This document shows positions 18,039 to 40,935 of a stretch of 64,000 bases of DNA, piece after piece. Made by a program: the position numbers and the translations under genes. This DNA comes from an uncultured bacterium (lineage in GTDB: Bacteria > Bacillota > Clostridia > Lachnospirales > Lachnospiraceae). The notes below the pieces were generated by a model. That model was not told where the DNA came from. It was given only the letters and a program-made list of their open reading frames with translations, and did not search any database. Every line of letters starts with the position of its first letter. The first letter of the stretch is position 1. The stretch lies in assembly GCA_947383005.1 (NCBI GenBank), contig CANDBT010000003.1:1-64000 (forward strand), read 5' to 3'.

Positions 18039-18100
18039 AATGAAAGTGAATGCGGATAGATGGAAGACCGGCAGAATCAAAGGATTATTTAGGGGGGGAC

Positions 18101-21100
18101 ATGCAGATTCAAGGTAAAACCGTACGGAAGGGATATGGAGGAGCAATGGCATTGCTTGTGTTTATTATGGCGTTTGTGCCATACCTGCCGATTCCGGAGA
18201 AAATATATGGGGCGGTTTCTTTTGGTGAAGGGGAAATCGTATACAGCAGCGAGCTTGTGTCTGTTTGGGATCATCTGGCGGCACAGGAGGGGATGGAGCG
18301 GACGGATTTTGTCGGGCATATGACCCGGACGTATCCCTATCCGGGAATTATCATTTACAAACAACAGACGAGCGTAAGCCCTGGCGGAAGATGGGCAGAT
18401 TATGAATACCGGAATATGTACTGCATCGCACACAGCCGTGAGCTGCAGGAAAATCCGGATATGAATATGGAAACAACGGCTGTCTGGTATATGAAAAAGA
18501 AGCCTTATACCCTGCAGGATTTGCCGGAATTTATCCGGGAAAATACGGCTGATGAGTATGCCTGGCGGTTGAATTTCCTGATTATGGCTTACGGGGCAAA
18601 TCAAGAAGCCGCTCAGGATGGAGTAAATTCGGACCCGGTTATAGGGACAGCTAATTACTATCTATGCCAAAGCCTTTGTACGTTGTCTGAGAAGGCGGAG
18701 TTTACGGGGGATTACAGTCATGATTGGGAGATTTACCGCGAGCATGCAGGGAATGTGGCTGAACGTTATCATCCGTCCGAGTTAGGCAGCAGCCAGGTAT
18801 ATCATGACATGAATGCCAAAATGGAACAAACTTTCTCCGTTGTATGGCATACGGCAAAATTGGCAGCGGAATGCAGGGAATCTTCCGACGAAGGATTTAT
18901 TTTTCGCCCGAGGGTCACACGGGAAGCTGACGGCATGTATCATGCCAGATATCCGTTAGATCAGGAGACAAGAGAGATCCTTTCCGCTGCCGCAATACAA
19001 TTGTATGGTGATTGGAGTTACGAATTCCAGGAAGATTCCATAGATTTTAAATCTCAGACAGGGAAAATTCCTGAGGAAGGATTTCTCGCCGGTCTTAATC
19101 TGGACAATGCCAATGGGATAATAAGAAGACATATCGGCAAAGAAAGTGTGAGGGAAGTTCACATGCCGGTGAAAGTGGGAAATCAATGGAGCCTGACTTT
19201 TGCCCAGGGGAATTTGATTTCCTGTTTGGAGGAAGGACTGCAGATCTTTGTTGGCAGTCCTTCGGAAGAAGCATTCGATGCAGGCGATTCATTAAGTACG
19301 TTGTCGGTAAAGCGTTATAAGCATCAGGAGAGATGGCAGGCTGATTACATAGTGGCTCTTCAAAAACGTGATGCGGAGACGGGGGAACCTTTAGCAGGCG
19401 CTTGGTTTGATATTTTGGAAGCATTTGATGAAAGGCAGTTGGAAGGAAGTGTGCTGGAAGACGATAATTGGGATAATGACCAGGGCAGCCAGTTTTTTCG
19501 CTGGGAAAGCTGGGACGGATCTTATGGCCAAAATGAGGGCGGTGATTCGTGTCAGAAAGATCAGGAGGTCACGGGAGAAGATGGGTGGCTGAGAGAAATG
19601 TCTTCTCTAGGAGCAGGCGAACTGCAGCCTGTAGGGGAATCCGTCCACAGGGACGTGAAATATTATACTTATACAAAGGGTTATTGCGGCGGACATCCCA
19701 AGCCGGATACAGAAGATGAGGATGAGGAGGAAGAGTATCAGCGGCAGGTGGAGATTTGTGAGAGGCTGTCAGCGGCCGGAGGTTTTTATCATTCTCTTGA
19801 CGGAAAAGCAGAGGAGTGGCTGAGAGAAGACAGGGACCGCCATTATCAGCAATTTGTCTCACTGGTTTATGATTATTCGGCGCGGGAACTGGCCGCACGT
19901 AAAGGATATATTCTGCATAATCAGGAGAAGATACATGAGCCTTATGACAATAGCTTTGATGGGATTCACCGGGATACCGTTCCTATTGAGACAGTAGCCG
20001 TTCATTCCAGTCAGTATTATGACTTGAATCGGAATCGCCGGCCGATGGTTTTGTCCGAAATAAAGCTGTCAGTGCCCAGAACGACGGCCGGTATTGCGAA
20101 AGCTACCGCGTCTGATGCGGATTTAACCGAAGATCTGCGGATTATCGATGAAGACGAATGTGCGGAAGAATCAGACGGGCAAGGACAATCAGCGACGGCT
20201 TCTGACGCAGTCAGGATTTTACCGGGAATAGTCAGGAGACAGATAAAAGAAAACGATGCACGGGCCGAACGAATAAAAACCGGCAGAAATGACAGGAAAG
20301 CCATTCAGATAAAGAATGAAGTGAATTTCCAGCCGTCTCCGATAGAAAAAATTTCACCGGCTGATTCGGAGTATTCCGGGCGCGGCGGAAAGGCATGGAT
20401 ATTTGAAGTGTATGATTACCGTACCGAGGGAGAAATCCATATCAATAAACGGGATCTGCAGTTAAAAGCGGGAGAAAACAATAATTACAGTTCTTATGGA
20501 GACGACCAGGGGGATGGTACTTTGGAGGGAGCCGTTTACGGGTTGTTTGCAGCAGAGGATCTTGTCCATCCGGACGGCAGGAGCGGGGTAGTGTTTGAAG
20601 AGGGAAATTTGGTGTCGGTAGCCGCTACTGATAAACACGGAGAGGCTTCGTTTATGGCTGTTACCGAACCTCCGGGAACCATTTATGACTTCAAGACGGG
20701 GACAACAAAGAAAACGGAATTTGACGGACCGCCAAACAAGTATATTGAGACATCCCATAAATATACCAGCAATAAAAATATAAAGGATAATGATCGGTGG
20801 TATTATCCGGTTTTTGATAACCAGTCAGCGAATGGCAATTGCTGGATCGGCCGGCCCCTTTTTCTTGGTTCTTATTATGTCCAGGAGTTGTCGCGTTCAG
20901 AAGGGTATGAAATGTCTGTATATGGCGCACAGGCAGAGGTTTCCAACAGAAATTCCTGGCTGGCAGGCAGAAACGGGCAAACCGCGGGTACCGTACGGGT
21001 AGATAAGGTCAAGGGCGTTTTTCAGAAGGCAGAGGATGAAGGGAGAGAAGAAACGGTAACAGAAATTTCTCTTATCAGCGAAAAAACCCGTTACGGATAC

Positions 21101-24100
21101 GATATCATGGTTAAAAATGCTGATCCGGCAAAGGAGCCTTCTTTTCATTTGACAGAAAAAGGGAAGAAGGAAGTATATCGGGAGTGGGATGAGACGGAAA
21201 TTGTAAGAGAGCCGGTACTGGCGGCTTTGGGAACACAGGTGATTCTTAATGGGAAAAGTGTGGAGGCGCAGGAAGGAGATGTGATTAATCTCCCCAACGG
21301 AAATTCAGCGGTGGTAAACCAGGTGCAAAAAATTGCCGTAACTCCGGAAAATGTCCGCATTACCGGCGAAAAAGGTGTGATTAAAATGTTGGATGTCCAA
21401 TATATTCCTGAATTGACCGGGATAGAGGGAAGTCTGACAGAGCAGTTTATCGGGAATTGTAATCAGGCATTTGCGCAGATCGGTCTGAGGGATGTGGGGA
21501 AGGATGCGCCATATTGGCTGGTGGAGTTGGGGGAAGACAGGCATTTTTGGGGACAAAAGCTATATTCTTTTCTGGAAAAGGAAGATAGGGCTGCCTTTAA
21601 CGGAGCAAGGCTGGAAACGGTGATTGAGCGGGAAGGGAAGAGTTATGGGGTGCTGCGATATTCTTTTCTGGGTGCAGACGGTCCTTTGCCGATAGTCTAC
21701 AGCGCTACGGATCAGATCTTTTATGTCAAATATCCGGTCAGTTATTCCGACGGAACAAGCGGTTATCTGTATCGGGGCTATCCTTTGGCAGAGGTGTCAA
21801 AAGAATACGATGAACAAAAGGAAGGCTGTTTTCGTTGGGTGGAAGTCCCTAATGTGGGGCCGGAAGCTTCGAATGTGCAGCTATATGAAGATTTGTCCGT
21901 CCTTTCTTACAAAAACAAACAGGAATTTAAGTCTTATTGGGTTTACGGAGCGGGAGAGTTTCTGCGCACGGATGACGGGGGAATTTATCAAAGAGAAGAG
22001 ATTCGGTATAAGAAAAACTCCGGCTATCAAACGGTAGAAACAACAGAATACATCCGTTTGAACGCTGAATATGAAGAGAATACCCATACCTGGCGTATTC
22101 ATGTGGCACAGGAACATATTCCTGCTGATGGCAAAATATTGGTTACTTTGCGGTACGGACATCGGTTTGCCGATTTGCCCGCCGGCGGGGGAGGAGGTAT
22201 CAGCGTCACGGCAGCGCCATGCAGGGACTGGGGTGAGAATTATAGCAAACCGGTGACTTTGGTTTATCCCGGGCAATTTGCCGTCAGTGAGGATGGCGGG
22301 ACAAGACAGAAACCGGTGGAACTTTTGGAGCGGGCTATTGTACAAAAGATCCGGATATCCAAAAGTATCAACAAGGATTCTTATTATCAGGTAAATACCT
22401 ATGGGGAGATCCATGAAGATTGGTTTACCCAGTGGTTTGGCGGGTATAAAAAAGAACATCGCAAAGCTGCGGCGGCAGAGAGAATCGATAATTTTCGATT
22501 TAAAATTTATTTGAAATCGAATTTGGTCAGGCTTTATCGAACTGAAGAAGGAAAAATTGTTTGGCAGGACCGAAGTGGTGCGGAACAAGAAGACAGACAG
22601 GCAAAAAAGGAAAATCAGGTATTTCCGGGATTGGTAAGGAAGATTTTTACGAAGGTGCTCCATAGGACAAACATTCTTTGCTACAATTCGCAGGATGCCG
22701 TTTTGGCTAACGGTCAGCTTTATGATTTTACGGGTGGATTGATTAACGAAAAGCCCAACAGCGGTTATAGTTCCGTGTTGGAAATTATCGAGGACGGGGG
22801 AGAGAATACAGGAGAAAAGACAAAAGTCCGATATAATTATGAAAAATTTTTCGCTGCTTTAGAAACAGCCAACCAGGACAAATGGGATGATGGGAAACCT
22901 TCTTACACCAGCTTTCGTCCTGTCGGCAATTTGCCTAATCGAACCGGGGATGCTTTGTTGAATGCTGCGGTTTCCGATCGGGTACGTCAGTTTGCTATTG
23001 ATTGGTATTTGGATGAAGAGGTGAAAAAGCTGCAGGAGGAATCGGTATCTTATTCTGATGAACAGTTGGATAAGGCGATGCGGGCTGCAACAATAAAAGC
23101 AGAAAATTATCTTATTCCGTTCTTTGCCTATGATTTGGATGAAATTTATGCGATTGACTGGGACAGCGAAGAAAATGGAGGCAGTGATGGTGACAGTTGT
23201 ACGCTTTCGGCGGACACGTTATCTGGAGACGAAAAATATTATTTGGGGACTTCCGCTTATTTGCCGTATGGGACATACGTGATTGCGGAGCAGCAGCCCC
23301 AATATGCGGGAGATGAATATGGGAAAAACTTCAAGGATTTTAAGAACAAGCATTATGAGAAAGCCGCGCCTTGTGAAGTGGTTTTGCCGTCGCTGCCGGA
23401 GTTCGTGGAGAACAGCTATATTTATGATTGTTCCATGACAATGGAAGAAATGGAACAAAAATACCATATTCGTTTTGGTGAAGAAAATCATGTAATCCAG
23501 GCACATAACCATCAAGGGGATTTCCAAATTTATAAATTCGGCCTTTCCATTAGCCAGATAAAAAACGGAGTGCCGCCTTCGTTGGGGAAGGGAGACTATT
23601 TTGCCTTGACGCAAAGCCCATACAAACCATTAAAAAATTATTATAATAAGGAAGATGACCGAACGGCAGGAAAGGCAGATTTTTATTTGGCGGAAGGAAA
23701 GAGCGGGCGAGAAGGGATTTCTTCCTATTATCGTTACAGTTCCGTATCGGAAGATAAAAAAACGGCAAGCGGAGGGCAGTATGGTTCTATGCTGGTGCCT
23801 TGGAGTATTGTGGCAGAAGAAGGAGCGGCAGAAAAAGATCCGGACACTGGCGAGAGCAGTTATAAAGGGTTTTGCCCTGTCGGGTTTGATAATCATTTTT
23901 TTGCGGCAAGGCTGAGGCTGGAAAAACTGGATAGCGAGACACATGAAAATCTTTTGCATGACGGAGCGATATTTGCGGTTTATGCGGCCAAAAGAGAAGA
24001 TTCCCAGGGGGGCAGCGGCTGTGTGGCTTTTTATGAAAAGGATACGGTTATATCCGGAAGCAGGGAATTTTTGGTTTCCATGGGCGCCCGTAATATTCAG

Positions 24101-27100
24101 CCTGTATATCCGGGGGAGGGAGAGCTTTGTACAGGGATAGTTTTGGCGGGGACGCCGATATGTGAAGAATCGGAAAAGATCATATTTGATGGTGCAGAAA
24201 ATGGGCAAAGAGCTTTATTCTGCTCGCAATCTACCGTACTTGACCATCAGACAGTCGGATATTTAGTAACGGCGCAGCCTTTGGGAGCGGGAGTATATGT
24301 GGTTGCAGAAGAAAAGCCTCCTTATGGGTACGTGAGAAGCCGCCCAGTGGCGGTAGAGATTTATTCGGATAAAATCACTTATTACAGGGAGGGGAAACGT
24401 GACAGCAGGGTATTGGCCGCCGTTTATTCCGACGCAGCCTATTCCGCCGCGGTTTATTCCGGTGCGGTTTATTCCGGCGCAGCTTATTCCGGCGCAGCTT
24501 ATTCCTATAAAGAAGATATTGATGACGGTAAGCAAGAAAAGGCGGAGGGAGGAGATGAGGATGAGCGGACGAATCAAGGATATACGGCGCGGGTATATAT
24601 AGAAAACACGCCGATTAAGCTGACCGTGGAAAAGAAAAAGGAGACAAATAAAACCCTTACCTATAAAGTTAGCGGCCGGATTGACGGCAGCCTTGAGGAT
24701 ATCGGTAACAACCCTGCTTATGAATATGCTTATGACGGGGGAACTTATCTGGGATATGCCTGGAAAAAAGGGACGCGGGAATACCTGGAATCCAGGCAAA
24801 AGGCGGGAGAACAGGTAGAACTTGTTTTTAAAGGAAATATTTTTGCCGGATATGGTTATGTAACGCGGACGCTTATGTTGGCAGACGACGAGAATCCTTA
24901 CGTGGCCGGGGCAAGGTTGGCTTTATTTGACGGTATTTTGCTCAATTCTACGGGGGATACCCAAGACCATGCTTTTGAAGGTCTGGTAGTCGAGCGCAAT
25001 GATGCCAATAATGTGACGCGAATGTATGTAAAGGAAGGGTACGGAGGGGAAAAAACCGATCTGATCAAGACAGAAGAAGGTGTGTGGACGGCGATTGTTC
25101 AGCCTCGCCCGGATACGGATATTCTGTATTATGATTTGGGCGGCCTGGAGATTTTTTCTACGGAAATGATTGAAGGGAGAAATGTGGTTTTTGGTTTTGA
25201 TAAAAACCACAGGAAGGTACCAAGAACAGAATCTTCCCTGTTTGCTTTTAAAGGCGGAGTGCCTTATTTGGAATTTGTCGGGGAAGACCTTACCAAACTC
25301 TCGTATTCCGCAAAAGACAAGGTTTTAACGATAGGCAAAGATACGTTAGTTTATCATTTGGATCGCGAAGGCAACAGGGACTCTTTGACGGATCCATATA
25401 CGGGTATGGCTTATGTAAATAGGAGGGAAGGTTTTTCAGCAGATAATGAAGGAGCAGGGGGCATTATGGTCTGGCCTGTCTATATCCAGAAGGATTCATA
25501 CGGAAATGTGATTGCCCGGGACAAAATTCTTACTTCGCGGATAGCTACGATAGGTGAAAATCAAAGTAGTGATGAAAACAGCGGTGAGGAAAGCGGTTTT
25601 CTGACCGGCTCTTGGAAAGCAGGAGGGGATGGTCAAAGCCATCGGAAAATTACGATACCTTTTAGCAGTTCGGAGAAAAATAGAGACGGAGAGATGTTGA
25701 TTGATCAGAATAACGGCAATGTTGAAAAACAAATGGCGCCGGTTATTGATCAGCATGGATTACCCCGATATTATCCAAAAAGTTCGGGAATTTACAATAA
25801 GGGAACCGTTCTTTTTGACCGCAACGGAGATTTTGTGCGCTATAAAGATTCTGATGGATTAAATCAGTATAACCGCAATGCTTATCATATGTATTCTCAG
25901 TCACAGCTTTATGACGGAAAGCTTCTGCAGGAGGATCAAAGCCAGGAAAAGCTGTATCATCGCCTGGGGGAAGCGTATATTTTGGAGAATGTATGGATTA
26001 CCTCAGATAAGACGCCAAATGATCCGTTCTCTTATGAAATGACGGATGGACAGCCGGATATCCTGAAACGGGTGGCGGCGGGAAATTATATTATGGAGGA
26101 ATGGGAAAGCCCTGAAGGATACAGGAAAGCTATGCCTGTAGCTGTCGTTGTCGGGGAGGATATTTCTATGCACAAGGCGTTTATGGAAGATAAAGTCATA
26201 AAGGCGGAAATCTCCAAGGTAGATGGAAGTGATGGTCAGAAAATAGGGGTGTTTGCCATTGACCAGGGAAAACCGGCAGAACAAATCGGGAACATAACAG
26301 AAGGGGCAGGTACCTATACTCATGGATTGGTAGCCGGGGCAAAACTTGCCTTGTTTGAAGCAAAAAAGGTGTATTCTGCCGACGCAAAAAAAGGCTATAA
26401 ACTGGTAAAAACTACAAATGAGCCGTTTACTTATGAAATTACGGACAGCAGGGCAGGAAAACGGCAAGAGAGACAGGCTGTCTGGGTTAGCGGCCATCAG
26501 CCAATATATCTGGAAGGTATTCCCGCAGGTACATATCTTTTGGAAGAGGTTTTTACTCCAGAAGGTTTCGTTGCCAGCGAACCTGTAGAGCTGGAAATTA
26601 CCGGCACGGAAGATGTGCAATTGGCGGTAATGTATAATGACCATACAAAAGTGGAAATGGAAAAGTATATGTTGGAGCAGGGAGAAAAAAAGCAGCTTGC
26701 CGGGGCAGGATTTACTTTATATGAAGCGCAGACGGATCATTTGGGAGAGGTTATATGGAAGGAGGGAAAGCCTCAGTATGATGAAGAAAAGGCGGCGGAT
26801 ACATGGGTTAGCAGCGATATGCAGGAATATTCGGGCTTCATTCCGGCATTTGAAGAAATGTACCGGACGCACGAGGGGAAAAGCGGTATGGCAGAAGGCG
26901 GTACGGCAATAGCCTGGGAAGCAAACGGGCAGGCATCCACAGCCAGTTTAAAGGAAATATCTCCCGAAGGAGGGATGATATTCTGCACGGACAACGGAAA
27001 ATTTATCCGTGTCAGTATCTATGGAGAACGAGAAAACCGGCAAGGGAAGACGGGGGATTTCGAATATCAGTTTGACTATAAAAAAATGCCCTGGATAAAC

Positions 27101-30100
27101 AGCCGGGCCGTGTCTTATGTGACGCTGGATGGTGTCCGGCGGTTCAATTTTCTTCCGGCAGGAAAGAAATATGTGTTGGTGGAAACAACCGTTCCCAGAG
27201 GTTATGCGAAATCGTCCGACCAGGTAATTACAGTGCCGGAGGCAAGGGATGTGTGGAGATATTCGACAGAAAACCGTGAAGGCAGGCTGGCTGTTTCCAA
27301 AACGGCAGAGGGAAGGAATGGAGAACTGGCCGGAGGGCGTATGGAATTATATCGGGCGGGAGCAGACGGAGAATGCATAAAAGATGAGGAACATTTGGTG
27401 GCCGGGTGGGTTACGGGAAGTGACGGGGCGTACACCCGGCAGGATTTTAGCCGGGGAGCGATACCTCAGGGATATAAACCGGGAGATTTAAAACCTCATG
27501 AAATCACTGGCTTGCCAGATGGGATTTATTGGCTTTTTGAGGAGGAAAGCCCGGATTACTATACCCGGATTGCACCGGTTTGTATTGATTATCATGTGGA
27601 AGATGAATTCCGGGTTATCTGCGTGGAAGATCAAATGGCAGTTGGCAAAGTAGTGGTTAAGAAAACGGATCAGGAAAACTGTCCTTTGGAAGGAGTCCTT
27701 TTTGAATTGGCAGCTTATCGGCCAAATGACAGGAAAAATCCGGTATTTACCAGGACCTTATGTGACAGGAAAGGGATAGTTCAGGCAGACGGCCTGCCTG
27801 TAGGCGAACAGGGAGAGGATGGCCGCATATCCCCTTATTTATACCGACTGAAGGAAATAACGCCGCCAAAAGGCTTTTCGGCAAGTACGCAGATTTTTAC
27901 CTGGAGTTTTGCCCCGGATAAAGAGGGGGTATCTTATGATAACGGGGAATCCGCTAGTTATGCGATAAATGTGGCTAACGATAAGACAAGAATTTTTGTG
28001 GGCAAGAAAAGCTTTGGTCATTTAAAAGGCCCTGAAGAAGGAGGGGTTTTTCTTGATGGGGCAGAGCTGGAGCTCTATGTTATTGAAGGCAGGGACGAGC
28101 AGGATTGTATTGTATACAAGAAAGATAAGCCCTGGGCAACATGGACAACAACAAAAGACAAGGAATATCTATTGGAAGGATTGGAAGCGGGGAGAAGTTA
28201 TCTGCTTGTGGAGCGAAAAGCACCGAAAGGGTATCAGCTTATGGAGCCGTTAATTTTTACCTTGTCTGCGGATGGAAGAAGAATTTGCAGCATTACCAAT
28301 CAGATCAATACTCTGGAGGCCAATTATCGTTCTTCGGATCAGGACGAAAGCCGGGAAATTGAATCTGTGACGGTAAGAGGGCGTTATGCGGTGAGGACAG
28401 AGTATGAGATGAGAGACGATTTGGGCAACGTGGTAGCGGGCTGGTTAGGAAGCAGGGATGGCTATAATGGGAAAAAAGAAGATGGGCTGGAAGAGGGGAA
28501 ATTGTATACGATAACTGAAAAGACAATATACAGCGATGGGACGGAAAAGATTGCCAGACGGTATACGGAGGTTTGGCGGTATGGCGATAACGATGAGAAA
28601 CATATTCCGGGACGTGAGGCCGGCCGGGTTGAACTAAAACTGAGCCGTGCAGATGGAACCGTGGTTGATTGGTTCAGTCCTAATGAAGCGATTCAGGAAA
28701 AAACCATTGTCAATACAGTTTCACCGGAAAATCCCAAGATAGTTTTGCAGAACAGAAATCATTCCGCCGGAGAGGGGCTGGATTCCCGGCAAGCGGTATT
28801 TGGCTCCGTAACATGTGTGAATGATTCGCTTACCGCCGCCGATATGAGTCTTACCGTTCGGCTAAATCCCGATACGGTCATTATCGATTCGGGAATCGGG
28901 ATAGTGTCAGGAGATTACCTGGTTTATCAGGAGGATCATGTTTTACCCCAGGAAAGCAGAGAGTTTAGTTTCGCTTTTGAGGCCGGAGAGGACGAGCTTT
29001 CTGTTCAGGCAGAGGCCGTTTTGCAGTATGGGGAAAACACAGTTACATCGGTAAAGCAGATGCCGGTAAGGCAAAAGGGAAAGCTGACGCTTTATCATGA
29101 GCTGACCGGTTCGGGAAAGGAGCTGTTTGGCGGGGAAGAAAGCCGGTTTGTGATTTGGCTGTATCGGGATAATGGTGAAGAACTGAAAGGACGGTATGGA
29201 TATGAGGGGAGCAAAACAGGTTTTTTACGGAGCGGAGACAGTATTACTTTAGCGGGCGATGAATTTATTACTATTGATCCGGGCGTATATCAGAATGTAC
29301 GATACCGGATTATCCAAATATCAGGAGGGAAGGATACAACAGAGGCAAACGTTCAAGGTCAAATAAGAACGGAAGGGAGTTGTGCTGTATTTAGCTGCGA
29401 GGTTTCCGATACTTCCAGGCGTCAATTGTTTAAAAAAGGAGAAAGTTATATTTTGACGGAAGATACTTACTATTCCGATGGCACGGTGCAGGAAACCGAC
29501 AGATTAGACATTACGTTAAACGAGAAAGCAGATCTTGTGGGCGTTGCAGCGGCAGATCGGAAAACCCGGGTGATATTTTCCAAAATCAATAAGGCAGACG
29601 GACAGCAATTGCCGGGAAATCAGCTTGCAGTAAGAGATTTGCAGGGGAAAGAGATTATCTCCTGGATATCCGGTGAACAGTCTTATGTGGCAGAAGGGCT
29701 TTTATCTGCCGGAGAGATGTATGTTTTGGAGGAACGTCTGCCTGCCGGCGGATTTGCCCAGGCAGAAGAAATGGTGTTTACTGTAAGCCGGGACAGCATG
29801 GAAGATATTGTGGTTTTGGAAAACGGGCCGACCAGGGCAGAGATAGACAAACGGGATGGCGCATCGGGAAAATATCTTTCGGGAGCCTATTTGCAGATAG
29901 AAGATTGTCAGGGGACGGTTATGGAACAATGGATTTCCGGGACGGAGGCTTACAAGGTTACGGGAAAGCTGAAGGCTGGTGAAACCTATTACCTTTGTGA
30001 GACAAAAGCGCCGGAGGGTTATCAAAAAGCAGAAAAAACGGAGTTTCGGATGCCATGGGGAGAGGAGAAAATAATATTGGTTTTAAATAACCGAAAAGAG

Positions 30101-30526
30101 GAAGGGGATGAGCCAGACAGGCCGGATGAACCGGGCAGTCCGGATGAGCCGGACAGGCCGGAAGAGCCAGACAGGCCGGACAAACCAAAGGAGCCACAAA
30201 TACCGGATGCTGTTTCGCACCGGGATAGGCAAAATGGGCCAGGGCAGGAAAAAAATGTGGGCAAAACAGGGAAGGAAAATCAAAATCCGGCAGGAGATAA
30301 AAAAGTTGGATGGATCAGCGCCAGATATACGGCGGAAGTCCCCCTGAATGGCGAAAAGTTTTTTGACGGTCATCCAGAAGAGGTTTTGACGCTTGTGCCT
30401 GCAGGAGACAGATCCCTTGTTCGGTTATACCGGATGCTTTGGCTGATGTCTGTGACGGGGATGATTGTCATTTTGGCTGCTATTCGGGAAAAGATTTTCT
30501 GTAATTTCTCAATTTCTGATAGATGA
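18101..30526 (+). CDS. Giant SpaA/Cna-B-repeat surface adhesin, possible thioester domain
   Basis: This protein of about 4141 residues is the largest in the window. ATG 18101 is preferred (GGGGGG site and a basic signal-peptide start); ATG 18146 behind GGAGGAGC is a second option. After the signal peptide, a region with YCIAHSREL (Cys at 18422-18424) and YYLCQSLC about 80 residues on resembles a Cys-Gln thioester adhesion domain, a tentative call. Prealbumin-like SpaA/Cna-B modules follow. Eleven E-box-like segments are visible, e.g. YVVAEEKPPYGYV, YLLEEVFTPEGFV, YRLKEITPPKGF, YLLVERKAPKGYQ and YYLCETKAPEGYQ; such domains form Lys-Asn/Asp isopeptide bonds. A five-residue AVYSG repeat lies at 24421-24506. 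A Pro-Asp-Glu spacer and one transmembrane helix (LYRMLWLMSVTGMIVILAAI) end it. No LPXTG motif is seen, so anchoring seems to be by the membrane helix. Confidence 0.85.
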   Translation: MQIQGKTVRKGYGGAMALLVFIMAFVPYLPIPEKIYGAVSFGEGEIVYSSELVSVWDHLAAQEGMERTDFVGHMTRTYPYPGIIIYKQQTSVSPGGRWADYEYRNMYCIAHSRELQENPDMNMETTAVWYMKKKPYTLQDLPEFIRENTADEYAWRLNFLIMAYGANQEAAQDGVNSDPVIGTANYYLCQSLCTLSEKAEFTGDYSHDWEIYREHAGNVAERYHPSELGSSQVYHDMNAKMEQTFSVVWHTAKLAAECRESSDEGFIFRPRVTREADGMYHARYPLDQETREILSAAAIQLYGDWSYEFQEDSIDFKSQTGKIPEEGFLAGLNLDNANGIIRRHIGKESVREVHMPVKVGNQWSLTFAQGNLISCLEEGLQIFVGSPSEEAFDAGDSLSTLSVKRYKHQERWQADYIVALQKRDAETGEPLAGAWFDILEAFDERQLEGSVLEDDNWDNDQGSQFFRWESWDGSYGQNEGGDSCQKDQEVTGEDGWLREMSSLGAGELQPVGESVHRDVKYYTYTKGYCGGHPKPDTEDEDEEEEYQRQVEICERLSAAGGFYHSLDGKAEEWLREDRDRHYQQFVSLVYDYSARELAARKGYILHNQEKIHEPYDNSFDGIHRDTVPIETVAVHSSQYYDLNRNRRPMVLSEIKLSVPRTTAGIAKATASDADLTEDLRIIDEDECAEESDGQGQSATASDAVRILPGIVRRQIKENDARAERIKTGRNDRKAIQIKNEVNFQPSPIEKISPADSEYSGRGGKAWIFEVYDYRTEGEIHINKRDLQLKAGENNNYSSYGDDQGDGTLEGAVYGLFAAEDLVHPDGRSGVVFEEGNLVSVAATDKHGEASFMAVTEPPGTIYDFKTGTTKKTEFDGPPNKYIETSHKYTSNKNIKDNDRWYYPVFDNQSANGNCWIGRPLFLGSYYVQELSRSEGYEMSVYGAQAEVSNRNSWLAGRNGQTAGTVRVDKVKGVFQKAEDEGREETVTEISLISEKTRYGYDIMVKNADPAKEPSFHLTEKGKKEVYREWDETEIVREPVLAALGTQVILNGKSVEAQEGDVINLPNGNSAVVNQVQKIAVTPENVRITGEKGVIKMLDVQYIPELTGIEGSLTEQFIGNCNQAFAQIGLRDVGKDAPYWLVELGEDRHFWGQKLYSFLEKEDRAAFNGARLETVIEREGKSYGVLRYSFLGADGPLPIVYSATDQIFYVKYPVSYSDGTSGYLYRGYPLAEVSKEYDEQKEGCFRWVEVPNVGPEASNVQLYEDLSVLSYKNKQEFKSYWVYGAGEFLRTDDGGIYQREEIRYKKNSGYQTVETTEYIRLNAEYEENTHTWRIHVAQEHIPADGKILVTLRYGHRFADLPAGGGGGISVTAAPCRDWGENYSKPVTLVYPGQFAVSEDGGTRQKPVELLERAIVQKIRISKSINKDSYYQVNTYGEIHEDWFTQWFGGYKKEHRKAAAAERIDNFRFKIYLKSNLVRLYRTEEGKIVWQDRSGAEQEDRQAKKENQVFPGLVRKIFTKVLHRTNILCYNSQDAVLANGQLYDFTGGLINEKPNSGYSSVLEIIEDGGENTGEKTKVRYNYEKFFAALETANQDKWDDGKPSYTSFRPVGNLPNRTGDALLNAAVSDRVRQFAIDWYLDEEVKKLQEESVSYSDEQLDKAMRAATIKAENYLIPFFAYDLDEIYAIDWDSEENGGSDGDSCTLSADTLSGDEKYYLGTSAYLPYGTYVIAEQQPQYAGDEYGKNFKDFKNKHYEKAAPCEVVLPSLPEFVENSYIYDCSMTMEEMEQKYHIRFGEENHVIQAHNHQGDFQIYKFGLSISQIKNGVPPSLGKGDYFALTQSPYKPLKNYYNKEDDRTAGKADFYLAEGKSGREGISSYYRYSSVSEDKKTASGGQYGSMLVPWSIVAEEGAAEKDPDTGESSYKGFCPVGFDNHFFAARLRLEKLDSETHENLLHDGAIFAVYAAKREDSQGGSGCVAFYEKDTVISGSREFLVSMGARNIQPVYPGEGELCTGIVLAGTPICEESEKIIFDGAENGQRALFCSQSTVLDHQTVGYLVTAQPLGAGVYVVAEEKPPYGYVRSRPVAVEIYSDKITYYREGKRDSRVLAAVYSDAAYSAAVYSGAVYSGAAYSGAAYSYKEDIDDGKQEKAEGGDEDERTNQGYTARVYIENTPIKLTVEKKKETNKTLTYKVSGRIDGSLEDIGNNPAYEYAYDGGTYLGYAWKKGTREYLESRQKAGEQVELVFKGNIFAGYGYVTRTLMLADDENPYVAGARLALFDGILLNSTGDTQDHAFEGLVVERNDANNVTRMYVKEGYGGEKTDLIKTEEGVWTAIVQPRPDTDILYYDLGGLEIFSTEMIEGRNVVFGFDKNHRKVPRTESSLFAFKGGVPYLEFVGEDLTKLSYSAKDKVLTIGKDTLVYHLDREGNRDSLTDPYTGMAYVNRREGFSADNEGAGGIMVWPVYIQKDSYGNVIARDKILTSRIATIGENQSSDENSGEESGFLTGSWKAGGDGQSHRKITIPFSSSEKNRDGEMLIDQNNGNVEKQMAPVIDQHGLPRYYPKSSGIYNKGTVLFDRNGDFVRYKDSDGLNQYNRNAYHMYSQSQLYDGKLLQEDQSQEKLYHRLGEAYILENVWITSDKTPNDPFSYEMTDGQPDILKRVAAGNYIMEEWESPEGYRKAMPVAVVVGEDISMHKAFMEDKVIKAEISKVDGSDGQKIGVFAIDQGKPAEQIGNITEGAGTYTHGLVAGAKLALFEAKKVYSADAKKGYKLVKTTNEPFTYEITDSRAGKRQERQAVWVSGHQPIYLEGIPAGTYLLEEVFTPEGFVASEPVELEITGTEDVQLAVMYNDHTKVEMEKYMLEQGEKKQLAGAGFTLYEAQTDHLGEVIWKEGKPQYDEEKAADTWVSSDMQEYSGFIPAFEEMYRTHEGKSGMAEGGTAIAWEANGQASTASLKEISPEGGMIFCTDNGKFIRVSIYGERENRQGKTGDFEYQFDYKKMPWINSRAVSYVTLDGVRRFNFLPAGKKYVLVETTVPRGYAKSSDQVITVPEARDVWRYSTENREGRLAVSKTAEGRNGELAGGRMELYRAGADGECIKDEEHLVAGWVTGSDGAYTRQDFSRGAIPQGYKPGDLKPHEITGLPDGIYWLFEEESPDYYTRIAPVCIDYHVEDEFRVICVEDQMAVGKVVVKKTDQENCPLEGVLFELAAYRPNDRKNPVFTRTLCDRKGIVQADGLPVGEQGEDGRISPYLYRLKEITPPKGFSASTQIFTWSFAPDKEGVSYDNGESASYAINVANDKTRIFVGKKSFGHLKGPEEGGVFLDGAELELYVIEGRDEQDCIVYKKDKPWATWTTTKDKEYLLEGLEAGRSYLLVERKAPKGYQLMEPLIFTLSADGRRICSITNQINTLEANYRSSDQDESREIESVTVRGRYAVRTEYEMRDDLGNVVAGWLGSRDGYNGKKEDGLEEGKLYTITEKTIYSDGTEKIARRYTEVWRYGDNDEKHIPGREAGRVELKLSRADGTVVDWFSPNEAIQEKTIVNTVSPENPKIVLQNRNHSAGEGLDSRQAVFGSVTCVNDSLTAADMSLTVRLNPDTVIIDSGIGIVSGDYLVYQEDHVLPQESREFSFAFEAGEDELSVQAEAVLQYGENTVTSVKQMPVRQKGKLTLYHELTGSGKELFGGEESRFVIWLYRDNGEELKGRYGYEGSKTGFLRSGDSITLAGDEFITIDPGVYQNVRYRIIQISGGKDTTEANVQGQIRTEGSCAVFSCEVSDTSRRQLFKKGESYILTEDTYYSDGTVQETDRLDITLNEKADLVGVAAADRKTRVIFSKINKADGQQLPGNQLAVRDLQGKEIISWISGEQSYVAEGLLSAGEMYVLEERLPAGGFAQAEEMVFTVSRDSMEDIVVLENGPTRAEIDKRDGASGKYLSGAYLQIEDCQGTVMEQWISGTEAYKVTGKLKAGETYYLCETKAPEGYQKAEKTEFRMPWGEEKIILVLNNRKEEGDEPDRPDEPGSPDEPDRPEEPDRPDKPKEPQIPDAVSHRDRQNGPGQEKNVGKTGKENQNPAGDKKVGWISARYTAEVPLNGEKFFDGHPEEVLTLVPAGDRSLVRLYRMLWLMSVTGMIVILAAIREKIFCNFSISDR

Positions 30527-30606: not shown

Positions 30607-33408
30607 ATGGGCGAACAGGAACCTAAAAAAGCGAAAAAATATATATGTGCCGGTGTGTTGGCCCATGTAGATGCCGGGAAAACTACACTGTCAGAAAGAA
30701 TCCTGTATCTGACCGGAAAGATTAGGAAAATGGGCCGGGTAGATTCCGGGGATACTTATCTGGATACGGATGAAATGGAGAGAGCCAGGGGGATTACTAT
30801 TTTTTCGAAACAGGCGATATTTTCCCTGGGTGAAACATCCGTGACTCTTTTGGATACTCCGGGCCATGTGGACTTTTCAGCGGAAATGGAACGGGCGATG
30901 CAGGTGATTGACTGTGCGATTTTGGTTATCAGCGGTGCGGATGGAGTCCAGGGCCATACAGAGACATTATGGCGGCTCCTTGGCCGCTATCAAATCCCCT
31001 GCTTTTTGTTTATTAACAAGATGGATCAGGAAGGCACGGTCAGGGAAAGGCTAATGGAAGAGCTGAAGAACCGCTTGAATGAAAATTGTGTTGATTTTGG
31101 CGGGGACAGACAGCTTTTAATGGAAAATCTGGCAATGTGCGAAGAAGAGCTTTTGGAGGATTATCTGGAATGCGGAACAATAGAGGAAGCGCAGATCAGA
31201 CGGTTGATTACCGAAAGAAAAGTTTTTCCCTGTTATTTCGGATCGGCGCTTAAAGGAGACGGGGTTGAAGAATTTTTAACCAGCCTCGAAAAGCTGATGC
31301 CTTGTCCGCAGTATGGAGAGGAATTTGGCGCTAAAGTATTTAAAATTTCCCGGGACGACCAGGGAAATCGCCTTACCCATATGAAGATTACCGGAGGATG
31401 CCTGAAGGTAAAAGAAATTTTGCAAGGAAAGGAAGCAGAAAAAGTAAACCAGATTCGGGTGTATTCCGGTGTGAAATTTGAACCGGCGGCCTGTGCCGAG
31501 GCGGGGATGGTTTGTGCCGTTGTCGGCCCTATGACGACATATCCGGGTCAGGGATTAGGCAGGGAGGTTCAATCCCAGATGCCGGTTTTAGAGCCGGTGC
31601 TGAATTATCGGATAGAATTGCCGGAAGGCGGCGATATCCATAAAATGATGAAGAATCTCCAGCAGTTGGAAGAGGAAGAGCCGCAGCTTCATGTATTGTG
31701 GGATGAGGATTTGCAGGAAATTCATGTCCAGATTATGGGAGAGGTGCAGATTGACCTGCTAAAAAGCGTGATAAAAGAGCGTTTCGGCGTGGATGCTGAA
31801 TTCGGCACAGGAAATATTGTCTATAAAGAGACGATTTTGCGTCCCGTGGAAGGAGTAGGGCATTTTGAACCTTTGCGTCATTATGCGGAGGTTCATCTTT
31901 TGATGGAACCGGCGGAACAGGGGAGCGGCCTGCAGTTTGATACTTGCTGCAGTGAGGATGTGCTGGACAGAAATTGGCAGCGGTTGGTTTTGACTCACCT
32001 GGAGGAAAAAATCCATAAGGGGATATTAATTGGAGCGGAAATTACTGATATGAGAATCCGGCTGGTTTCCGGCCGTGCCCATATCAAACATACGGAAGGC
32101 GGAGATTTCCGTCAGGCTACGTATCGGGCCGTGCGGCAGGGGCTGATGGAAGCTGGCTGCCGTCTGCTGGAGCCTTATTATGCTTTTCGGCTTGAAGTGC
32201 CGCAGGAGTCGGTGGGACGGGCTATGGCGGATTTGGAGCGGATGCAGGGGAGGTTTGAACCACCGCAGATAGAAGGGGGCAGGGCGGTGCTGACAGGCAG
32301 CGGACCAGTAGCCAAGATGCGGGATTACCAACGGGAGGTGGTTAAATACACTAGAGGACGAGGGATATTTTCCTGTGTTTTGGAAGGATACAAGCCCTGC
32401 CATAACGAAGAAGAGGTTGTAGCTGCTGCCGGATATGATCCGGAGGCCGATTTGGACAATCCTGTGGGGTCAGTATTCTGCGCTCATGGCGCCGGGTTTG
32501 TGGTGCCCTGGAATGAAGTGAAAGCTTATATGCATGGGGAAAGCTTGTGTGTTTCAGATGCGCAGGTCCCAGAAGCACAAGTTCAAGATGTGCAGATCCC
32601 AGAAGCGCAGGTTCCAAATGCACCGAAGACAGTAGCCAGGAAGGAATATCCACAACGGCAGGCGCCACGTACAGCAGCTTTAACGTCGGCTTTCGGAGCG
32701 GAAGAGAAAGAACTGGAAGAGATTTTCATTCGGACTTATGGGGAGCAAAAGCCCAGGCGGTTTGGGGAAACAGGAGCCAGGCAGGTTGTATACAAAGAAG
32801 AATCCGCACGGAGACAAGAAGATGTGGCGCAAAGGCAGGAAGGAACAGGTGGCCATGCCACAGATAAACAAAAGGAGGAGCCAGGGTATCTTCTGGTAGA
32901 TGGATACAATATTATTTATGCGTGGGAAGAGCTGCGTGAATTGGCGGAGCGAACCATCGACGGGGCCAGGTATCGTTTAATGGATATTCTTTGTAATTAT
33001 CAGTCTTTTCTCTGTCGTGAGCTGATTGTGGTATTCGATGCCTATAAAGTACCGGGAAATTCAGGCAGTACGATGGACTATCACAATATTCACGTGGTAT
33101 ATACGAAGGAAGCAGAAACGGCGGATCAATATATCGAAAAATTTGCCCATCAAATGGGCAGGAAAACTCCCGTGACGGTGGCTACGTCGGACGGTTTGGA
33201 ACAGTTGATTATCCGGGGCCAGGGATGTTTGCTGATGTCGGCTAAGGATTTACGGGAAGATGTGGAGCGGGTAGACCGTCAGATAAAGGAGCAACAGCAT
33301 AAGCTTTTGCAGCCGGAAAAATATTCTTTGTTTGACGGAGTTGATCAGGAGTTGGCCAGGTATCTGGAAGATGTGCGTTTGGGGAAGATTAGCCTTTCTC
33401 ATCAATAG
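30607..33408 (+). CDS. Tet(M)-like translation GTPase fused to NYN/Rae1-like nuclease domain
   Basis: This 933-residue protein has an EF-G-like ribosomal-protection part (about 1-640) and a C-terminal NYN/YacP domain (about 760-925). GTPase motifs are intact: AHVDAGKTT (19-27), RGIT, DTPGH and NKMD. The domain IV region LLEPYYAFRLEVPQ resembles Tet(M)/Tet(O). The linker (about 645-755) is Gln/Ala/Arg-rich with QVPEAQV-type repeats. The C-terminal domain shows LLVDGYNII (D765), VVFDAYK (D811), EAETADQY (E837, D840) and ATSDG (D862), the acidic set of PIN-like NYN nucleases. In B. subtilis the single-domain YacP/Rae1 cleaves mRNA in the ribosomal A site. The fusion suggests GTPase-guided action on ribosomes. 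Tetracycline resistance cannot be deduced. GGAAGGAG precedes the ATG. Confidence 0.88.
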   Translation: MGEQEPKKAKKYICAGVLAHVDAGKTTLSERILYLTGKIRKMGRVDSGDTYLDTDEMERARGITIFSKQAIFSLGETSVTLLDTPGHVDFSAEMERAMQVIDCAILVISGADGVQGHTETLWRLLGRYQIPCFLFINKMDQEGTVRERLMEELKNRLNENCVDFGGDRQLLMENLAMCEEELLEDYLECGTIEEAQIRRLITERKVFPCYFGSALKGDGVEEFLTSLEKLMPCPQYGEEFGAKVFKISRDDQGNRLTHMKITGGCLKVKEILQGKEAEKVNQIRVYSGVKFEPAACAEAGMVCAVVGPMTTYPGQGLGREVQSQMPVLEPVLNYRIELPEGGDIHKMMKNLQQLEEEEPQLHVLWDEDLQEIHVQIMGEVQIDLLKSVIKERFGVDAEFGTGNIVYKETILRPVEGVGHFEPLRHYAEVHLLMEPAEQGSGLQFDTCCSEDVLDRNWQRLVLTHLEEKIHKGILIGAEITDMRIRLVSGRAHIKHTEGGDFRQATYRAVRQGLMEAGCRLLEPYYAFRLEVPQESVGRAMADLERMQGRFEPPQIEGGRAVLTGSGPVAKMRDYQREVVKYTRGRGIFSCVLEGYKPCHNEEEVVAAAGYDPEADLDNPVGSVFCAHGAGFVVPWNEVKAYMHGESLCVSDAQVPEAQVQDVQIPEAQVPNAPKTVARKEYPQRQAPRTAALTSAFGAEEKELEEIFIRTYGEQKPRRFGETGARQVVYKEESARRQEDVAQRQEGTGGHATDKQKEEPGYLLVDGYNIIYAWEELRELAERTIDGARYRLMDILCNYQSFLCRELIVVFDAYKVPGNSGSTMDYHNIHVVYTKEAETADQYIEKFAHQMGRKTPVTVATSDGLEQLIIRGQGCLLMSAKDLREDVERVDRQIKEQQHKLLQPEKYSLFDGVDQELARYLEDVRLGKISLSHQ

Positions 33409-39105: not shown

Positions 39106-40935
39106 ATGAATGTGAAGAGAGAAGATGTCAGAAATATAGCGATTATCGCTCATGTAGACCATGGCAAGACTACTTTGGTGGATGAGCTGCTGAAGGCCAG
39201 CGGCATTTTCCGTGCAAACCAGGAAGTGGTGGAACGGGTCATGGATTCCAATGATATTGAGCGGGAAAGAGGAATTACCATTTTATCAAAGAATACGGCT
39301 GTTTTTTATGAAAATATCCGAATCAATATTATTGACACTCCCGGACACGCCGATTTTGGCGGGGAGGTCGAGCGGGTTCTGAAAATGGTCAATGGCGTAA
39401 TTTTAGTAGTAGACGCGTACGAAGGCCCCATGCCTCAGACTAAATTTGTGCTGAAAAAAGCATTGGAACTGGATTTGCCGGCGATTGTATGCATCAATAA
39501 GATTGATCGGCCGGAGGCGCGGCCGACCGAAGTAATTGATGAGGTTTTGGAGCTTTTCATGGATTTGGACGCTTCCGATGAACAGTTGGATTGTCCTTTT
39601 GTTTTTGCTTCGGCAAGAGAGGGATTTGCCAAAAAGGAGCTGGATGGGCCGTCAGAGGGGATGAAACCGCTGTTTGAGACAATTGTGGATTATATTCCCG
39701 CTCCGGAAGGGGATTTGGATGCGGATACCCAGATGCTGATTAGCACGATTGATTACAACGAATATGTGGGGCGTATAGGAATAGGGAAAATTGACAACGG
39801 GAAGCTGCATGTGAATCAGGAATGTGTGATTGTCAACCATCATGACCCGGACAAGCTGCGCAAGGTAAAAATCGGTAAGCTCTATCAGTTTGACGGCTTG
39901 AACCGGGTAGAAGTGCAGGAAGCCGGCATGGGAGATATTGTTGCTGTGTCTGGTATCACTGACCTGCATATCGGCGATACTATCTGTTCGCCGGATAATC
40001 CGCAGGCAATTCCGTTTCAAAAGATTTCCGAGCCGACTATCGCTATGAATTTTGTGGTAAATGACAGTCCTCTGGCAGGACAGGAAGGAAAATATGTCAC
40101 TTCCCGCCATCTTCGTGAACGTCTGTTCAGAGAGCTGAATACCGATGTCAGTTTGCGGGTAGAGGAGACGGATACCCCGGATTGCTTTAAGGTATCCGGC
40201 AGAGGGGAGCTTCATCTGTCCGTGCTTATTGAGAATATGCGCCGGGAAGGTTTTGAGTTTGCTGTCAGCAAGGCAGAAGTGTTGTATAAATATAATGAAA
40301 GGAATCAGAAATTGGAGCCGATGGAGCTGGCGTATATTGATGTGCCGGAAGAATTCACCGGGAGCGTGATTCAGAAACTGACATCCCGGAAGGGAGAACT
40401 GCAGGGAATGAGTCCGACTAACGGAGGTTATACCCGTCTGGAATTTTCCATTCCTTCCCGTGGCTTAATCGGGTATCGGGGTGAATTTTTGACAGATACC
40501 AAAGGCAACGGGATTATGAATACAATTTTTGACGGATATGCTCCTTGCAAAGGAGAGCTGAGTTATCGGAAAACCGGCTCGCTGATTGCTTATGAGAGCG
40601 GCCAAGCAATCACTTACGGTTTGTTTAATGCACAGGAAAGAGGAATGCTGTTTATCGGGCCGGGAGAAAAGGTTTACGCAGGCATGGTTATCGGACAGAG
40701 TCCTAAAGCGGAAGATATAGAGGTCAATGTCTGCAAAACGAAAAAATTGACGAATACCCGTTCTTCCAGCGCTGACGAAGCGTTAAAGCTGGTGCCGAAG
40801 AAAGAAATGAGTTTGGAACAATGCCTGGAATTTATTGATACGGACGAACTTCTGGAAGTGACGCCCAAGAGCCTTCGAATCAGAAAAAAGATTCTTGATT
40901 CTACCTTACGGAAACGGGCATCTTTTAAAAAGTAA
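39106..40935 (+). CDS. typA: Ribosome-binding GTPase TypA/BipA
   Basis: This 609-residue translational GTPase has the normal length for BipA. Its motifs are [15 protein letters not shown] (residues 14-28), [27 protein letters not shown] and [10 protein letters not shown], followed by EF-G-like domains and the BipA-specific C-terminal domain ([20 protein letters not shown]). BipA assists ribosome assembly and translation under stress and cold. It is preceded by its own promoter and a leader hairpin. No strong GGAGG is seen; AAGAAGAGA is the likely site. Confidence 0.96.

Follow-up and report, generated by a model that had tools for sequence, protein, structure and literature searches.

Does a protein that joins an elongation factor-like GTPase to a ribonuclease in one chain protect the ribosome from a drug, or does the GTPase bring the nuclease to the ribosome? 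The question is raised by a gene at positions 30607..33408 (+ strand) of the 64,000-nucleotide stretch analyzed here (hereinafter the window; positions 1 to 64,000 of contig CANDBT010000003.1, assembly GCA_947383005.1), which comes from an uncultured bacterium of the family Lachnospiraceae. An initial annotation described the product as a ribosomal-protection GTPase fused to a Rae1/YacP-like NYN nuclease, that is, a factor that recognizes a stalled or drug-bound ribosome and cleaves its mRNA. The reading that we favor, with a probability of roughly 0.5, is that a GTPase carries Rae1 on a flexible tether and the fusion acts as a ribosome-targeted mRNA endonuclease. The gene is laid out as follows:

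30607..33408 (+), fused translation GTPase-NYN (Rae1/YacP) gene, 933 amino acids, ATG start
30637..31302 (+), G domain, residues 11-232, with intact motifs AHVDAGKT, RGIT, DTPGH and NKMD (Pfam GTP_EFTU, 175 bits)
31324..31806 (+), domains II and III, approximately residues 240-400 (EFG_III, 44 bits; EF-G_D2, 19.4 bits, under the cut-off of 27)
31813..32154 (+), domain IV, residues 403-516 (EFG_IV, 67 bits)
32080..32112 (+), domain IV tip, residues 492-502, HIKHTEGGDFR (TetM Pro509 aligns with K494)
32161..32409 (+), domain V, residues 519-601 (EFG_C, 72 bits)
32416..32541 (+), conserved C-terminal extension, approximately residues 604-645, SVFCAHGAGFVV.W (alignment; predicted helix and hairpin)
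32542..32886 (+), linker, residues 646-760, predicted to be largely disordered apart from a short helix at 700-711 (alignment and model)
32890..33378 (+), NYN_YacP (Rae1) nuclease domain, residues 762-924, with acidic D765, D811, D840 and D862 (Pfam NYN_YacP, 172 bits)

The open reading frame is real and complete, with GGAAGGAG, spotted by eye, directly 5' of the ATG. It is not an assembly join, given that we read 42 full-length fused relatives and that frames of fusion length predominate in the family. The elongation-factor domains span residues 11-601 and the NYN domain residues 762-924 of the same chain, as initially proposed.

Relationship of the GTPase half to Tet and EF-G proteins

Conservation was assessed in an alignment of the window protein with the 42 full-length fused relatives (43 sequences). 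The G-domain motifs and domains III to V mark the window protein as a translational GTPase of the EF2 family, and motif positions 19, 22, 25, 26, 64, 83, 87, 137, 138 and 140 are unchanged in 43/43 fused proteins. Among solved structures, the GTPase half matches Tet(O) and Tet(M) best (E values of 1e-78 to 1e-74), and EF-G is matched too; EF-G-type structures are also found among the 50 matches listed by Foldseek for the whole model. The likeness to Tet(M) and Tet(O) is that of EF-G-like multidomain GTPases, at about 255-269 bits to the window protein, and the likeness to EF-G lies in the domain order and the G motifs.

The window protein scores 425 bits against the NCBIfam Tet model NF012153 (cut-off 775), 295.5 bits against the Tet model NF033148 (cut-off 1100) and 311 bits against the EF-G model TIGR00484 (cut-off 659.4), and the 25 of 40 NCBIfam matches listed for this protein include no Tet or EF-G model at or above its cut-off. 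Three comparison Tet proteins (L250, L260 and L261) exceed the cut-off of 775 with 853-1001 bits, the Tet-like proteins L249, L262 and L263 stay under it, and two unfused orthologues of the window GTPase score 450 and 393 bits. With a profile of the fused GTPase, most fused proteins obtain approximately 690-1130 bits, complete unfused orthologues roughly 600-825 bits and Tet-like proteins at most about 510 bits. The other translational GTPases of the window's own genome, two EF-G-type proteins among them, give at most 221 bits per match and at most 315 bits for the whole protein; none of them is within the score range of Tet-type proteins from other genomes. A GTPase tree was built from 46 fused and 24 unfused proteins together with 6 Tet or Tet-like proteins and 2 EF-G proteins. 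The first two groups make up one clade (70 tips, support 1.0), and all 6 Tet or Tet-like proteins fall outside it.

The domain IV tip reads KHTxGGDF in 44/46 fused and 23/24 unfused GTPases and VDSxEMAF in both EF-G proteins compared; in the three proteins above the Tet cut-off, the same seven columns hold PVSPxDF. According to a published account, TetM binds the ribosomal A site, where its domain IV tip, with Pro509, overlaps the tetracycline position and displaces the drug (PMC7456112); the fused proteins have lysine at the Pro509 position in 43/43 cases, and their loop is not of the Pro509 type. The C-terminal extension (SVFCxxGxxxxVxW type) is common to the fused proteins and nearly all unfused orthologues, with no clear copy in the most divergent unfused GTPase, L272; it was seen in none of the 6 Tet-type proteins and neither of the 2 EF-G proteins compared. 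The window protein thus differs from Tet(M) and Tet(O) in the tip, the extension, the curated scores and its clade, and from EF-G in the tip and the sub-cut-off score. Judging from these sequence comparisons, the GTPase half is not a Tet protein and represents a separate subfamily related to both Tet and EF-G. With a score of 425 rather than 775 bits, a position outside Tet in the tree and lysine in place of Pro509, we do not retain the ribosomal-protection label.

The nuclease half and its C-terminal tail

The NYN_YacP match is well above its cut-off of 24.6 bits and covers profile positions 1-165 of 166. Taken by itself, the NYN part gives a match to the solved B. subtilis YacP/Rae1 with an E value of 2e-29, in agreement with the kinship that had been claimed, and is alignable with it (5mq8, 5mq9) over the whole length with the same acidic positions; unlike the window nuclease, the B. 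subtilis protein is standalone, with no GTPase attached. The acidic residues had been described as intact: D765, D811, D840 and D862 are unchanged in 43/43 fused proteins, position 837 carries E in 30 proteins and Q in 13, and the loss of acidic residues among orthologues, which the initial annotation had named as telling against its proposal, was not seen. In the NYN alignment, D6, D52, D81 and D103 are invariant in all 25 rows, fused and standalone alike. Rae1 is described as a ribosomal A-site mRNA endoribonuclease (PMC6613710, PMC12320835).

Standalone Rae1 has a tail of nearly fixed length, whereas the tail of the fused nuclease varies. For the tail count, 379 genomes were kept from three overlapping draws (135, 132 and 161 genomes with NYN), with contig-edge, broken and second copies omitted and one kept row (735 amino acids) in neither class; among the matches listed, the NYN match ends before profile position 160 in 121/228 fused versus 0/150 standalone proteins. 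After the xTSD motif, 65-67 residues follow in 14/15 standalone and 37-80 in 45/46 fused proteins, the length being not measurable in fused L105 and in standalone L138 (249 amino acids, with a longer tail). Mapped on the GTPase tree, 11 short and 34 long tails imply 6 short/long changes, compared with a mean of 10 and a minimum of 6 in shuffles; the window protein keeps its NYN tail. In B. subtilis, the missense change R166P, which the numbering of the YacP alignment places in the tail, is among suppressors classed as loss of function (PMC6613710). We infer that, on the ribosome, standalone Rae1 is aided by its tail, a need that is relieved by the GTPase; shortening of the tail after fusion fits a GTPase that has taken over part of the docking.

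The linker and the predicted structure

An AlphaFold2 model built from the 43 aligned sequences (mean predicted local distance difference test score, pLDDT, 81; predicted template modeling score 0.63) consists of two mostly well-predicted modules tethered by a linker with pLDDT below 50 at residues 651-699 and 714-756; the C-terminal extension is modeled as a helix and a hairpin with pLDDT of about 90. Because the linker is predicted to be disordered, the model does not define the orientation of the nuclease. With regard to the reach of the NYN domain to the A site, on which the initial annotation depended, the predicted flexibility leaves such reach possible, with the pose itself undefined in the model. 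The stretch between the extension and the nuclease comprises 62 to 205 residues in the 43 fused proteins (median 78; 116 in the window protein).

Within this otherwise variable linker, residues 700-712 (window 32704-32742) make up a helix-forming segment of the ELxxIFxRTYG or EIDxIxxRTFYAN type. As aligned, E702, inside this short kept segment, is present in 43/43 proteins. The segment is possibly a docking motif; a strict ELxxIFxRTY-type pattern matches 15/43 linkers only, such that the motif depends on the looser alignment.

Distribution of fused, unfused and standalone genes

In Lachnospiraceae, the nuclease usually occurs as the fusion. Among 150 genomes drawn from the family, 135 have NYN_YacP, nearly all with one match; 124 of these were scored after 11 had been left out because of contig ends, split frames or second frames (five of these 11 also have fusion-length frames), and the NYN gene lies in a fusion-length frame in 114/124 and in a standalone-length frame in 9. 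The window's own genome has a single NYN_YacP gene, the fusion itself. Fusion-length genes are found across the class and in many families and, judged by GTPase frame length alone, in other classes of the phylum. A draw from the class (n=243) yielded 84 genomes with fusion-length genes, 10 with an unfused GTPase and standalone Rae1, 5 with an unfused GTPase and no NYN found, 4 with interrupted or contig-edge genes, 63 with Rae1 only and 77 with neither gene.

A search for the GTPase covered 51 chosen genomes, including the 15 NYN-less genomes of the family and 13 of the 15 NYN-less genomes of the order. The subfamily GTPase was found in 0/15 of the former and, cut by a contig end, in one of the 13 latter (G224). 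The 9 family genomes with standalone Rae1 include 4 with a complete unfused GTPase, 1 with a shortened one and 4 with none. In the five class genomes with the GTPase and no NYN_YacP found (G315, G343, G318, G357 and G461; L240-L243 and L245), either the GTPase has a function without Rae1 or the nuclease has been replaced.

A single origin of the fusion was considered and not adopted: the fused proteins are monophyletic in the best GTPase tree, but the support is just 0.286. In an NYN tree of 122 tips, which omitted 3 unclassified domains, 5 fused/standalone label changes are needed, compared with a mean of 39 and a lowest value of 32 in shuffles; one standalone-labeled tip, L274 from genome G042, has an adjoining GTPase frame. 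In this genome, as in G515 and G334, the GTPase and NYN adjoin in different frames and could be interrupted fusions, assembly errors or truly split neighbors. An unfused orthologue-like GTPase with the tip VHTxGGDF and the same C-terminal extension was also observed on a Ligilactobacillus salivarius plasmid (NZ_CP020859.1, L290:4019-5938), where it is flanked by transposase genes and labeled Tet.

The ordinary rae1 locus and the genomic context of the fusion

In Clostridia, standalone rae1 has trmH (SpoU-type methylase) within about 2 kb in 11/15 loci, both trmH and a sigma-70-type gene in 8/15, and often cysS and an RNase III-domain gene as well; we take the latter and the sigma gene to be mrnC and sigH, by the names used in B. 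subtilis. The window fusion does not fit this arrangement. When 8 fused genomes were probed by means of the sigma gene, 7 had the trmH-sigma locus with no NYN gene in the stretch, and CysS and MrnC were seen in 6 of these 7 loci, suggesting that the fusion takes the place of ordinary Rae1 in most cases. The same probe found no trmH-sigma locus in the window's own genome, and the fetched stretches of 25 unfused GTPase loci contain no NYN, trmH, cysS or sigma gene.

By family, the tested neighbors of the fusion in the window are a SpaA-domain surface protein, SpoVAD, a SpoVAC/SpoVAEB protein and a penicillin-binding protein, and, further, a UPF0029 protein, TypA, and SSB-type and CobO-type proteins. 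With these neighbors, a drug-resistance island was rejected. The initial annotation had placed the gene next to sporulation genes rather than in such an island, which is accurate for the window; the link to sporulation was rejected as far as SpoVA is concerned, because homologues of SpoVAD and SpoVAE recur in 0/42 fused loci (with flanks of 3-4 kb in most cases and less in a few; other spore genes not screened) and are hence incidental. The largest clusters of neighbors, which were not annotated, reach 8/42 fused loci, indicating that there is no conserved neighbor partner.

Several individual observations concern this context. In Monoglobus pectinilyticus (NZ_OY725736.1), the spore coat genes cotJA and cotJB (L292:6908-7364) are found downstream of the fusion. 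The surface-type protein with SpaA prealbumin-like domains in the window is 4158 amino acids long (18050-30526, +), and its gene ends 80 bases upstream of the fusion gene. TypA/BipA, a second translational GTPase, is encoded 5.7 kb downstream of the fusion (39106-40935, +); no separate TypA was found in the fetched stretches of fused relatives, where the TypA matches are to the fusion itself.

Possible mechanism and alternative explanations

If the GTPase carries Rae1 to its target, the GTPase half in its GTP form would engage stalled or slow ribosomes with a tRNA-free A site, and the KHTxGGDF tip would probe the decoding center. GTP hydrolysis and the release of domain IV would vacate the A site, whereupon the tethered NYN domain could enter and cut the exposed codon, and the cut would allow rescue of the ribosome and decay of the mRNA. 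Because a single A site should not accommodate domain IV and Rae1 at once, the halves would have to act in turn; the linker as modeled allows such sequential action, without proving the sequence. We infer ribosome binding, A-site cleavage, the stalled-ribosome target and the order of events, and it counts in favor of this reading that the GTPase half is homologous to Tet and EF-G proteins solved on ribosomes. A factor that cleaves mRNA on the ribosome, as proposed in the initial annotation, is supported without being proven, and the drug-bound ribosome as its target is not supported. More tentatively, the fusion might be a GTPase-licensed quality-control factor that detects stalled ribosomes whose A site is empty and, by hydrolysis, hands this site to the tethered Rae1 for mRNA cleavage. 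Eukaryotic no-go decay pairs a GTPase with an endonuclease, and the fusion would be a bacterial counterpart if this reading is true.

Several observations weigh against delivery of Rae1 by the GTPase. Domain IV and Rae1 would compete for one site, and the order of events is a guess; the shortening of the tail is explicable by simple drift. In the class draw, 63/73 genomes with standalone Rae1 lack such a GTPase, implying that Rae1 does not need it, and the five genomes with the GTPase and no NYN found suggest that the GTPase may have its own job. When unfused, the two are separate, non-neighboring genes, and their co-occurrence in the class draw is not significant (Fisher p = 0.17), so that the link between the GTPase and Rae1 rests on the fusion. 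Furthermore, standalone Rae1 is kept beside the fusion in some genomes, such as G271.

Much of this would also suit two separate jobs, namely, a GTPase with an unrelated ribosome function and a nuclease tethered to it for co-expression or for concentration near ribosomes. The occurrence of either protein without the other, the lack of an NYN gene in the fetched stretches of the 25 unfused GTPase loci, the long, predicted disordered linker and the persistence of standalone Rae1 next to the fusion are all in line with such a division, which we nevertheless find unlikely, given that the fusion is retained across many families, the NYN-less genomes of the family also lack the GTPase (0/15), the short linker segment with E702 is retained, and the NYN tail is shortened in fused genes only. 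A sequential rescue, in which NYN makes the cut in the A-site mRNA and the GTPase thereafter clears the ribosome as an EF-G-like motor, by translocation or splitting, would make use of the retained EF-G-like domains and GTPase motifs, would account for the GTPase in the five class genomes without an NYN gene, and would obviate the sharing of one A site, which domain IV and Rae1 should not do. The tip, however, is unlike that of EF-G (KHTxGGDF versus VDSxEMAF), the score is far under the EF-G cut-offs, and the genome already has an ordinary EF-G, making this order of events a somewhat unlikely one. The observations presented here nonetheless fit both this order and delivery of Rae1 by the GTPase.

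The idea of a protein that protects ribosomes from tetracycline or another drug and has acquired an RNase, after Atkinson 2015, draws on Tet proteins being the best-scoring named relatives and on the record of the fused orthologue from Agathobacter rectalis (WP_306784676.1), where it is labeled a TetM/TetW family resistance protein. We give it very little credence: all listed Tet models score far under their cut-offs, the clade is separate from Tet, Pro509 is replaced by lysine in 43/43, and the family carries the gene as a rule, not sporadically. Tetracycline resistance is an unlikely function of the fusion in view of the tip, the scores, the wide and regular distribution, and the true Tet genes that stand beside the fusion in genomes G421 and G331. 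It is also highly unlikely, in our estimate, that the fusion processes rRNA or tRNA, with NYN as the trimming enzyme and the GTPase as a helper in ribosome assembly: Atkinson 2015 (PMC4342817) cites a proposal that NYN_YacP acts in rRNA/tRNA maturation, but the studied relative, Rae1, is described as a cutter of A-site mRNA.

Relation to previous work and implications

The domain pairing is already published and is not new. According to Atkinson 2015, Tet proteins of ten clostridial species acquired a YacP-like NYN domain, and an RNase-based resistance mechanism was suggested (PMC4342817); these proteins have the same domain pairing as the window fusion and are presumably the same proteins. 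There, the pairing was counted as Tet, whereas here it belongs to a separate subfamily that has unfused orthologues, is usual in one family and replaces the rae1 of the operon. Beyond this one report of the pairing, no literature was found that sets the subfamily apart from Tet or that describes its unfused orthologues, its replacement of operon rae1 or the difference in the tail, in a search that did not extend to Leroy 2017 and Condon 2018.

A gene present in most genomes of a major gut family is named tetracycline resistance in at least one record, although it fails the Tet tests; the Monoglobus orthologue is recorded as a 'translation factor GTPase family protein'. Such labeling could lead to overcounting of resistance genes in gut metagenomes. 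In addition, the natural fusion turns the admission of an A-site mRNA endonuclease to the ribosome into a testable question, because the GTPase and the nuclease are separately mutable in one chain and can be compared with the two-gene version. If the fusion is indeed a GTPase-licensed quality-control factor, it would be the form that such a factor usually takes in Lachnospiraceae, and a version made of two genes would exist elsewhere in Clostridia.

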